Assembly: GCF_010550695.1 (NCBI RefSeq)
Contig: NZ_JAAGOB010000001.1
Location: forward strand, 558,001 to 622,000
Direction: 5' to 3'
From: Phytoactinopolyspora alkaliphila
GTDB taxonomy: Bacteria; Actinomycetota; Actinomycetes; Jiangellales; Jiangellaceae
DNA: 64,000 bases
Part shown: positions 43,893 to 61,972 of the stretch, in pieces
Layout of the letters: each line of letters opens with the position of its first letter
Numbering within the stretch: the first letter of the stretch is position 1
Notes under the pieces: model-generated
Told to the model about the DNA's origin: nothing
Seen by the model: only the letters and a program-made list of their open reading frames with translations
Database searches by the model: none
Made by a program: the position numbers and the translations under genes

Positions 43893-43900
43893 GCGGCAGC

Positions 43901-43940
43901 GTCCTGCACACCGTGGTCCATGGCACTCGGTGTGCAGGAC
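43901..43940. terminator. 13-bp hairpin between thrS and the HIT gene
   Basis: GTCCTGCACACCG (43901-43913) and CGGTGTGCAGGAC (43928-43940) form a perfect 13-bp stem with a 14-nt loop, only 9 nt after the thrS stop and 23 nt before the HIT start. No T-run. It may attenuate or process the transcript rather than end it. Confidence 0.6.
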
Positions 43941-43962
43941 GCACGGGATGGAAGGGGTGAGC

Positions 43963-59141: not shown

Positions 59142-60127
59142 CGCTGGGGACGTCCCGGCCTTCGCACCGGACGCGGGGGAGGGTGAGGCGGCCGCTGACC
59201 CGGCGGCCGCTCACCCGGTCCCGGCGTGACGACTTGACCGGCCGGCTCCTGGTGAGCCCGACGGTACTGGTGGTCTTCCTCGTCGTCGTCCTGCCGTTCT
59301 TCGCGGTGGTGGCGTTCGGGTTCTTGAATGTCCGGCTGGTGGACATCCCGCGAATCTCCCTGTTCGACCTCGAGTTCACCGTCGACAATTTCTCGACAGT
59401 GCTCTCCAGCACCGTGTTCTGGACGTCGTTCCGGACCACCGCCATCTACGCCACCGCCACCACGCTGGGCGCGATCGCCGCCGGCCTGGCGGTGGCGATC
59501 GCGCTGCGCCATCCGTTCCCCGGGCGCGGCCTGATCCGCGCCCTCGTGCTGATCCCGTACGTGCTGCCGATCGTGGCCGCCACCACCATCTGGAAGACGC
59601 TGCTGAACAGCCAATACGGCGTGGTGAACGCGTTCGGCACCGAGTTCCTCGGCTGGGACGGCCCGATCGCCTTCCTCAGCACCACGTCGCAGACCTTCCT
59701 CGGCATTCCGGTGCCAGTGACGCTGGTCGTCGTCGTCCTGTTCGAGATCTGGAAGACGGCCCCGCTCGCCTTCCTGTTCATCACCGCGCGCCTGCAGGTG
59801 ATTCCCGGCGAGCTCGAGGAAGCGGCGTCGATCGATGGGGCGTCGATCACGCAGCGGTTCCGCTACATCGTGATGCCACAGTTAAGGGGTGTCGTCGCGT
59901 TGCTGATCCTGCTGCGCTTCATCTGGTCGTTCCAGAGCTTCAACGACATTTACCTCCTCACCGGCGGCGCCGGTGGCACTCAGGTGATGGCGATCAAGGT
60001 GTACGACGAGCTGATCACCCGGGCGAACATCGGTACTGCGGCCGCCTACGGGCTGGTGATGACCGTGATCCTCGCCGTCCTGATGGCCGTCTACGTACGA
60101 GCCAACCGTGCGGAGAACATCGGATGA
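59138..60127 (+). CDS. ABC sugar-transporter permease 1 (MalF type)
   Basis: 329 aa, six transmembrane helices after a basic N-terminus. The EAA loop for ATPase contact is EEAASIDGASITQRFRYIVM. ATGA-type overlap with the binding-protein stop and with the second permease. No ATPase gene is linked; the locus probably uses the shared MsiK-type ATPase known for actinobacterial sugar importers. Confidence 0.93.
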   Translation: MTLGTSRPSHRTRGRVRRPLTRRPLTRSRRDDLTGRLLVSPTVLVVFLVVVLPFFAVVAFGFLNVRLVDIPRISLFDLEFTVDNFSTVLSSTVFWTSFRTTAIYATATTLGAIAAGLAVAIALRHPFPGRGLIRALVLIPYVLPIVAATTIWKTLLNSQYGVVNAFGTEFLGWDGPIAFLSTTSQTFLGIPVPVTLVVVVLFEIWKTAPLAFLFITARLQVIPGELEEAASIDGASITQRFRYIVMPQLRGVVALLILLRFIWSFQSFNDIYLLTGGAGGTQVMAIKVYDELITRANIGTAAAYGLVMTVILAVLMAVYVRANRAENIG

Positions 60128-60999
60128 GCCGGAGCCGAATGAGCGGAACCACCGAGAAGCGGGTCCTGACGGTGCTCAAGGTACTCGTCATCGCCGGGGC
60201 GGTCGTGGTGAGCGCCGGACCGCTTCTCTACGGCATGCTGCTGTCCGTGCGCCCGTTCTCCGCGGTGGTGAACGCGCCGCTCGACCTGTTTCCAGCCCCG
60301 TCCGAGCTGGACTTCGGTTCCTATCCCACGGCGCTGCGTGACGAGTCGGAGGGCGGATTCGGCCTGGCCCGGCTGATGCGCAACTCGCTCGGCGTGGCGG
60401 TCGGCACCGTCGTCCTGGCGGTGGGCTGCAGTGTCCTGGGCGCGTACGCGGCAGTTCGGCTGCGCTTCTTCGGCCGCACGGCGGTCAACGGCATGTTCCT
60501 CGCTGTCTACCTGTTTCCGGGGATCGTGCTCGCCGTGCCCCTGTTCGTGGGGATGAGCCGGATCGGGCTGACCGGGTCACTGTTCGGGCTGGTGCTCATC
60601 TACATGGCGATGACGGTGCCCGTGGCGCTGTACATGCTGCGGAACTATTTCGTCGCCGTTCCGGTCAGCGTCGAGGAGGCCGCACTGATCGACGGCTGTG
60701 GGCGGCTGAAGATGATCTGGAAGGTGGTGCTGCCGATGTCGCTGCCCGGTATCGCTGCCACCAGCCTTTACGTGTTCATGATCGCCTGGAACGAGTACTT
60801 GTTCGCGTTGCTCTTCCTGGTGCGGGACCGGGAACGCTGGACCGTGGCCCTGGGCATCGCCCAGCTGACCGAGTTCACCGTGCCGGCCACGGTGCTGATG
60901 GCCGGCTCGATCGCCATCACCGTCCCCGTGATCGTGGGCTTCTTCGGCGCGCAGCGGCTGCTGATCTCCGGGCTCACTCACGGCGCGGAGAAGGGCTGA
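60124..60999 (+). CDS. ABC sugar-transporter permease 2 (MalG type)
   Basis: 291 aa, six transmembrane helices, EAA loop EEAALIDGCGRLKMIWKVVL. Overlaps permease 1 by 4 nt. Ends 22 nt before a perfect 41-bp inverted repeat. Confidence 0.93.
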   Translation: MSRSRMSGTTEKRVLTVLKVLVIAGAVVVSAGPLLYGMLLSVRPFSAVVNAPLDLFPAPSELDFGSYPTALRDESEGGFGLARLMRNSLGVAVGTVVLAVGCSVLGAYAAVRLRFFGRTAVNGMFLAVYLFPGIVLAVPLFVGMSRIGLTGSLFGLVLIYMAMTVPVALYMLRNYFVAVPVSVEEAALIDGCGRLKMIWKVVLPMSLPGIAATSLYVFMIAWNEYLFALLFLVRDRERWTVALGIAQLTEFTVPATVLMAGSIAITVPVIVGFFGAQRLLISGLTHGAEKG

Positions 61000-61021
61000 G
61001 ACCACCCTCCACCAAGCGACG

Positions 61022-61115
61022 CCTAAATGATCATGTAAACCATGTTTTCTCGTGCTTCACCAGGACTGTAGACATGGTGAAGCACGAGAAAACATGGTTT
61101 ACATGATCATTTAGG
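61022..61115. repeat. Perfect 41-bp inverted repeat (94 bp) between convergent genes
   Basis: Left arm 61022-61062 and right arm 61075-61115 are perfect reverse complements over 41 bp around a 12-nt loop (61063-61074). The arms begin and end CCTAAATGATCATGTAAACC and GGTTTACATGATCATTTAGG, much more AT-rich than the region. The right arm includes the stop codon of the dioxygenase gene at 61111-61113. A very stable cruciform or hairpin; possible roles are bidirectional terminator, remnant of a mobile palindrome, or operator. Confidence 0.85.
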
Positions 61116-61923
61116 GGTAGAGCACGGGGTTGAGTGGCGTGTCCGGAACGTCGCCGAGGGTGGCTCCCGGCATCAGGACATCGAGATCGTTCTGCTGCTC
61201 CGGGCGGACCAGCGGCCCGACCCGGATGTCGGCGTCCATGTAGATGACGGTCATCACCCGCCGCGGTTCCGTGCCGGTGTTGCGGCCCGCCCGGTGGAAG
61301 GTCCAGCCCAGGTGGAAGCTCACGTCACCGAGGTCGTATGGAGCCTCGTCGATGGGGAAGTCCTCCCGCTGCAGCGCTTCCTGCAACGCGCGCTCCGACT
61401 CGTCACTGATCTTCAGGTCACGGCCGAACTCGAACCGGTGGCTGCCGCGCGCGAACGACAGCGGGCCCATGTCCAGCGGCGTGTCCTGCAGCGGGATCCA
61501 CACGGTACAGGTGCGGTCGGTCGACAGCGGCCAGTAGTACTGGTCTGCGTGCCATGGCGTGATGCCACCGCTCGGCTCCTTGTACAGCGCCTGGTCGGCG
61601 TAGAGGCGGACGCTGTCGACCTGGAGCAGCGATGCCGCGATCCGGGCCAGCCTCCGTGAGAAGACCAGGTCATGAGCAGCCTGGCTATGCTTCCACAAGT
61701 TTCCAACCTGCAGGAAGGCCTTCTGCGTGGTGGTGCGCTCCGCCATGGGGGCGTGCACGGTATTCAGCTCAAGGACCTTGGTGGTGATCTCCGGCTCGCG
61801 CTCCCGCAGGAGACCCGGATCCAGGACATTCTTCAGCCGGATGTAGCCGTCACGCTCGAACGCGTCGACGTCGGCGTCCGCGAGCGGTGCGCGATCCGTG
61901 AGACCTGGGGACGTAGCAGTCAT
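61111..61923 (-). CDS. Phytanoyl-CoA dioxygenase-family Fe(II)/2-oxoglutarate oxygenase
   Basis: 270 aa. Metal site HxD is in WHADQYYWPL, with a distal histidine in LGWTFHRAGRN; the arginine R in the last strand region binds 2-oxoglutarate. PhyH-type hydroxylases modify small molecules such as sugars or osmolytes. Start ATG 61923 follows GGAGGAGAG. It faces the sugar operon across the 41-bp palindrome, sharing a convergent 3' end. Confidence 0.88.
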   Translation of the reverse strand: MTATSPGLTDRAPLADADVDAFERDGYIRLKNVLDPGLLREREPEITTKVLELNTVHAPMAERTTTQKAFLQVGNLWKHSQAAHDLVFSRRLARIAASLLQVDSVRLYADQALYKEPSGGITPWHADQYYWPLSTDRTCTVWIPLQDTPLDMGPLSFARGSHRFEFGRDLKISDESERALQEALQREDFPIDEAPYDLGDVSFHLGWTFHRAGRNTGTEPRRVMTVIYMDADIRVGPLVRPEQQNDLDVLMPGATLGDVPDTPLNPVLYP

Positions 61924-61972
61924 GGCGTGAACTCTCCTCCGAGCCAGCGGTCTGCTCAATGGTGCAGCGTCT

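Follow-up and report, generated by a model that had tools for sequence, protein, structure and literature searches.

A dispersed, species-specific palindromic repeat at gene 3' ends in Phytoactinopolyspora alkaliphila and its relatives

The 64-kb stretch of the Phytoactinopolyspora alkaliphila genome analysed here (the window) contains a long perfect palindrome belonging to a repeat family, family A, which is placed at gene 3' ends. Copies of the family maintain pairing between their arms, carry sequence specific to the species, are patchily present at orthologous gene ends and are used as targets by insertion sequences. The best explanation, to which we give a probability of about 0.6, is that family A is a non-autonomous palindromic repeat of the YPAL- or MITE-like kind which settles behind stop codons and there acts, in both directions, as an mRNA 3' hairpin that lacks a U-tract.

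An earlier note on this DNA had described a perfect, AT-rich inverted repeat at a convergent gene junction which includes the stop codon of the PhyH gene, and this description is exact. The arms are reverse complements at 41/41 positions around a 12-nt loop, their G+C content is 0.39 vs 0.674 window-wide, and the hairpin lies between the converging permease and PhyH open reading frames with the PhyH stop codon in its right arm (Table 1). The second-longest perfect inverted repeat in the 64 kb (loop of 3-20 nt) has arms of only 15 bp. Folded as RNA, positions 61015-61122 reach -75.5 kcal/mol (z = -15.97), a value equalled by 0 of 200 shuffles. Comparison of window positions 60800-61400 with Rfam gave nothing at the gathering score, and the sub-gathering matches were nearly all to microRNA precursors.

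Table 1. Positions of the palindrome, its parts and neighbouring genes in the window, and of hairpins with another base motif
Feature	Position	Strand	Remark
Palindrome left arm, 41 bp	61022-61062	no strand	exact reverse complement of 61075-61115
Loop GGACTGTAGACA	61063-61074	no strand	family consensus tip near-palindromic itself: CCTGCAGG
Palindrome right arm	61075-61115	no strand	contains PhyH stop codon 61111-61113 (-)
Conserved base motif AATGATCATGT, left copy	61026-61036	+	conserved across own-genome copies
Conserved base motif AATGATCATGT, right copy	61101-61111	-	conserved across own-genome copies
Species-specific block AAACCATG, left arm	61037-61044	+	on both arms in 52/61 own copies
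Species-specific block AAACCATG, right arm	61093-61100	-	on both arms in 52/61 own copies
Octamer CTAAATGA	61023-61030	+	ISL3-type target repeat in other own copies; uninterrupted here
PhyH (phytanoyl-CoA dioxygenase family) gene	61111-61959	-	PF05721, 94.4 bits; stop codon supplied by hairpin
ABC transporter permease gene, convergent	60124-60999	+	PF00528, 65.5 bits; stop 22 nt short of hairpin
CGTCCTGC-base hairpins	window 43899-43942; L266:17675-17724; L282:12588-12633; L293:15246-15287

A 141-bp query gave 80 matches in the own genome (5.5 Mb, 33 contigs; both strands counted), out of which 40 separate copies were read, and a covariance model (R1) built from 15 sequences gave 132 matches at 66 places, R1 counts running at about two per copy. 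Among 22 genomes of the family, which we take to be the Jiangellaceae, 19 match R1 at E <= 1e-3, with at least 150 matches in P. halotolerans (G002), 120 in P. halophila (G005), 23 in P. endophytica (G003; like P. halotolerans, of the own genus in the taxonomy used), 121 in G001, 123 in G020, 122 in G008, 90 in G014 and 6 in G004, and at this threshold 0 in G017, G018 and G021. The G008 assembly (L063, L079) is 1.7 Mb long and 75% complete, so that its matches, corresponding to some 61 copies, lie at a density far above that of the own genome. This search of the arms against the own genome and its relatives refutes the worry, voiced in the earlier note, that the palindrome could be an artefact or a one-off. 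Apart from how seldom perfect long palindromes occur, nothing favours an assembly artefact or one-off inversion, and it has practically no chance of being correct, since the repeat stands at 66 places and in independently sequenced relatives, one of which carries a hairpin of the same family on the stop codon of its PhyH orthologue.

Beyond the family, a class-wide draw of 197 genomes searched at E <= 1e-6 with stricter filters gave 15 matching genomes, namely 13 of the family plus G070 and G168. The long hairpins of G168 (L197) and G070 (L198), which belong to other families, have the related bases TGATCACGTT and GACCACGTT and are either distant members of family A or look-alikes. A scan of named genomes with an exact pattern requiring one intact arm gave at least 77 matches, all of them in Phytoactinopolyspora among the matches listed. 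The species names given here to G002, G003 and G005 are based on identical stretches shared with named genomes. No match to family A was found in the plasmids searched, nor in viral contigs with one exact pattern. A decayed own copy (L246:1966-2066; contig C3, near 8767) retains a single outer arm intact.

Placement is tied to the ends of genes. By the calls of a home-made gene caller, the 66 own copies comprise 31 at convergent and 28 at tandem junctions, 1 at a divergent junction (a weak copy) and 6 at contig edges, vs 58 convergent, 191 tandem and 87 divergent among all gaps of at least 60 bp at the same loci, hairpin-holding gaps included (Fisher, p = 5e-8 for convergent and p = 2e-6 for divergent). 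The nearest upstream stop lies at -17 to +35 nt in 30/31 convergent and 26/28 tandem copies, a position close behind stop codons as expected of a YPAL- or MITE-like repeat. In 25/59 own copies the gene ends inside the hairpin, and the stop codon is then the TAA or TGA of the hairpin base. The corresponding counts (convergent, tandem, divergent, edge) are 6, 14, 0 and 1 in P. halophila and 1, 1, 1 and 0 in P. endophytica. In P. halotolerans (n = 56) they are 24, 18, 3 and 11, and the 3/56 divergent copies, called with the same home-made tool, are counted against the best explanation.

The repeat unit is 94 bp long, copies of other length having been omitted from the consensus and from the target-duplication test. 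From the outside inwards it consists of a base CCYR, the motif AATGATCATGT, a block of 8 bases and TTTTCTCGTGC, and it closes with an inner hairpin whose tip is CCTGCAGG. At the relatives' loci, 2 of 24 from outside the family, the left arm reads exactly AATGATCAYGT in 15/24 and the rest deviate. The block differs between species and is written on both arms: AAACCATG in 52 of the 61 own copies whose arms are both readable, GAAGTGGG or GAAGTAGG in 42/50 P. halotolerans copies, and TTGGTACG in 8/9 P. halophila copies, this last species having 12 further copies that are one-armed (12/21 of its set). Hybrid copies also occur, with TAAGTAGG on one arm and AAACCATG on the other in the own genome (C5:177134) and with one TTGGTAGG arm and one GAAGT arm in five P. 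halotolerans copies. Both the hybrids and the one-armed copies are a hint that arms may be exchanged singly.

A block that is uniform within a species, differs between species and appears on both arms would also suit a DNA-level signal, in which arms and block form the recognition site of a co-evolving protein that acts, for example, in organising the chromosome or in DNA uptake. This is quite improbable, given that placement is bound to stop codons, that the P. halophila set contains so many one-armed copies and that 3/22 family genomes lack any match; we know of no binding protein.

Pairing of the stem across 62 own copies amounts to 93.8% of cells vs 92.9 after shuffling, and changes on both sides fall on 47 cells vs 26.1 shuffled, with 0/500 shuffles as high; structures slid out of register pair at 33-44%. 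Flanking bases just outside AATGATCA in the own copies pair at 0.75 vs 0.58 shuffled (position 1) and 0.50 vs 0.44 (position 2). Beyond these two bases there is no excess of copy-specific pairing, and P. halotolerans shows none at any position near the motif, so the repeat unit is sharply edged. The idea that the repeat entered the stem of a pre-existing terminator was considered as well and is unsupported, the excess of flank pairing being found only next to AATGATCA.

Placement, pairing and fold, as read from sequence, suggest a two-way mRNA 3' hairpin. By this mechanism the repeat would insert directly 3' of stop codons, a transcript of either strand would fold into a very stable hairpin, and the hairpin would close the mRNA of one gene at tandem junctions or of both at convergent ones, acting as a U-tract-less terminator or as a barrier halting 3' trimming. 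Ending or stabilisation of mRNA by the hairpin is what we infer. Behind the stem, a U-tract (at least 5 T in 8 nt) is found at 0/132 stem ends, and no canonical terminator was found at the hairpins, which are therefore not of the canonical intrinsic type. The mean in these 8 nt is 1.03 T, and judged on this mean the hairpins resemble U-lack (I-shaped) 3' ends, that is, a stable stem-loop followed by fewer than 3 U in 8 nt. Of the putative bidirectional terminator or double-stranded mRNA 3' end proposed in the earlier note, the placement thus fits, but the canonical intrinsic form does not. Selection at the RNA level should give a preference for G-U over A-C mismatches on the sense strand, and the 60 vs 62 counted in stems of tandem copies, with asymmetric copies omitted (5 own, 6 P. 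halotolerans, 12 P. halophila), show none, which counts against a 3'-end RNA role.

The same lack of preference counts in favour of family A being a selfish or neutral repeat of no benefit to the host, surviving at 3' ends since insertions elsewhere harm genes or promoters, with arm pairing left by recent spread or by palindrome-correcting replication errors. We regard this as a serious though unlikely alternative, which the species-specific copies and the distribution at orthologous gene ends also favour. A single joined query served to look for orthologues of own hairpin genes in four congeners, and it yielded 47 regions for 13 junctions hand-picked among the most uniform copies, orthology being based on one gene side; a LacI-like fragment (L036) was omitted because of hits on paralogues. 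By a fixed rule, family A stands at 4 of the 47 ends and a different TGATCA-based palindrome at 10, while 33 have none (2/5/5 in P. halotolerans, 1/4/7 in P. endophytica, 1/0/12 in G001 and 0/1/9 in G004). Presence and absence are thus both found at syntenic places, with the same family at 4/47, between species too distant for exact empty sites. With 33/47 ends empty (12/13 in G001 and 9/10 in G004), the hairpin is evidently dispensable, which also weighs against the proposed 3'-end role. At the P. halotolerans PhyH orthologue, beside which the permease was not found, a family-A hairpin with the blocks GAAGTGGG and GAAGTAGG overlaps the stop codon; in G001 and P. endophytica the PhyH orthologue has no hairpin.

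What speaks against a selfish or neutral repeat is the presence of other palindromes (e.g. ATGATCATCAACCGT..., CATGATCATGAACATT...) at further orthologous ends. TGATCA palindromes stand at 7/12 orthologous ends vs 10/116 background ends in P. halotolerans (p = 1e-4) and at 5/12 vs 5/113 in P. endophytica (p = 7e-4), where the background consists of transcription-unit-like gene ends and the tests pool both kinds of hairpin. This excess in two species points to a hairpin being favoured at such ends, provided that the palindromes do not have a common target preference. G001 and G004 show little, with palindromes at 1/13 and 1/10 ends, a comparison made without background ends. The loose 11-mer rule is also positive in 11/392 own background genes and is therefore not specific to family A. 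By eye, decayed TGATCA palindromes that the rule leaves uncounted are visible at L206, L208 and L211.

Model R2, built for another palindrome family from 8 sequences, matches 21/22 family genomes at E <= 1e-4, with 22 matches in the own genome (best E 1.8e-10), at least 150 each in P. halotolerans, G004 and P. halophila and 128 in P. endophytica; the weaker matches may in part be other TGATCA palindromes. A 3'-end hairpin family with the base motif CGTCCTGC occurs in the own genome, P. halotolerans and P. endophytica, and a different TGATCA-based palindrome (CCATGATCATTGAC...) lies between convergent own genes at L267:10957-11012. The 400 kb of own sequence examined for other hairpins consisted of stretches picked for their scarcity of family A, so the count of other hairpins is biased for the own genome.

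A tentative and rather doubtful extension is that gene 3' ends are docking points at which palindromes are exchanged whole. Unrelated palindrome families with TGATCA as their common base would take each other's place at one and the same stop codon, or would have their arms re-templated singly, each species writing its own block into its set. If true, copying would need no transposase and go by gene conversion on a palindrome template, or it would depend on a trans-acting mover of an undescribed kind, and the hybrid copies, C5:177134 and the five of P. halotolerans, would be half-converted steps.

Two types of insertion sequence land on the hairpins. In the own genome, an ISL3-type end pattern (up to 2 mismatches) was found 15 times, always where a contig ends, and 15/15 adjoin the hairpin-base octamer CYAAATGA or a one-base variant; at 7 the hairpin follows, and 8 are on the outer side, where the octamer copy alone is visible. 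The name ISL3 is based on a PF01610 score of 34.8 bits for a 54-residue fragment beside one end, and the two end sequences of this type could represent either variants or opposite ends of a single element. At L224 an ISL3-type end sits, by eye, on a hairpin-base remnant. IS30-like ends number 14, of which one is at a contig end and one (the C16 end) is outside the readable set; all 12 readable ends lie in the inner part of the hairpin; at 11 of these the outer arm follows, and at 1 the inner arm stands alone. The associated open frame scores 67.9 bits for HTH_38, presumably a marker of IS30. Many breaks between draft contigs fall at insertion sequences in or beside hairpins (e.g. L010:1-94, L041:1-189, L196:1-124). 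Contig starts beside hairpins were also considered as rRNA operons, but they have no Rfam match and are insertion-sequence ends instead. The idea of a recombination hotspot, raised in the earlier note, survives only in the sense of a landing site for two insertion-sequence types.

The physical association of both elements with the hairpins could be read as descent, family A being a miniature derivative of one of them. However, their ends are unlike the hairpin ends and they insert at fixed points of base or tip, so the association is through target choice and such an origin is very improbable. Evidence of mobility was sought elsewhere. Y1_Tnp, the domain of RAYT-type or IS200 movers, is found in 0/22 family genomes, and a control search for it was positive in 5/14 named genomes. 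In 62 copies, direct repeats at the symmetric offsets examined for target-site duplication were no more frequent than expected. No transposase was recognised by eye among the genes within two of the hairpin in the 12 largest clusters, nor was an autonomous parent with the arms as its ends recognised in these clusters or in the first 100 of 138 matches of an arm search. The mobile palindromic element suggested earlier is well supported as a dispersed repeat family, with similar copies at 66 own places and a patchy distribution across species, but no mover was found for it. Under the preferred reading of family A as a non-autonomous repeat, its spread would be due to a trans-acting transposase or to one copy converting another.

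The closest known kind is the YPAL repeat of Yersinia. YPAL was reportedly described by De Gregorio et al. in 2006, and YPAL copies are reported to insert closely downstream of stop codons. According to a review, YPAL (or RU-2) sequences are dispersed palindromes of about 100-170 bp with a stable hairpin RNA, target sites at or beside dyad symmetry and a proposed influence on upstream mRNA, and they generate target duplications of 3-26 bp and are not A+T-rich (PMC2229807); YPAL is also listed in PMC2267715. Family A is likewise a dispersed palindrome with a stable hairpin, and is likened to YPAL by this description rather than filed under it. It differs from what that account gives in having no target duplication that was found and in its A+T-rich, nearly perfect arms. 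Its sequence also varies by species, and other palindrome families occupy the same gene ends.

With REP and BIME sequences, family A shares its many intergenic palindromic copies and its use as a landing site for insertion sequences (PMC1525189). REPs are given as 20-40 bp in PMC3733652, and the 94-bp family A, with Y1_Tnp in 0/22 genomes, is unlike REP/BIME systems with a RAYT. Elements of the IS3, IS110, IS4, IS256 and IS5 families target REP palindromes, one repeated palindrome being chosen, sometimes by every copy of an element, and the term ISL3 is absent from the main text of this source (PMC1525189). The transposases here similarly choose one repeated palindrome, but there are two different fixed points, the base for the ISL3-type element and the tip for the IS30-like one. 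Highly structured U-lack transcript 3' ends, likened to I-shaped terminators, and bidirectional transcript ends are reported for Streptomyces clavuligerus in passages of PMC8269248. The stem-loop of family A is comparably stable and without a U-rich tract; the S. clavuligerus ends, as those passages present them, apparently form no single repeated family, whereas family A is one repeated 94-bp sequence. Among the best literature matches listed, no title or abstract opening describes family A, and in such text PMC5292007 alone pairs 'palindromic' with 'Phytoactinopolyspora'.

Loss is the expected fate of long perfect palindromes. Family A has nevertheless been kept and multiplied, in species-specific form, in several genera and at one type of site. 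It offers a clean case in which two unrelated transposases choose a common palindrome, the first targeting the base and the second the tip. It also provides a natural series in which the same gene has the same hairpin, a different hairpin or none, and this series is useful for asking how high-GC actinobacteria that lack U-tracts end their mRNAs.
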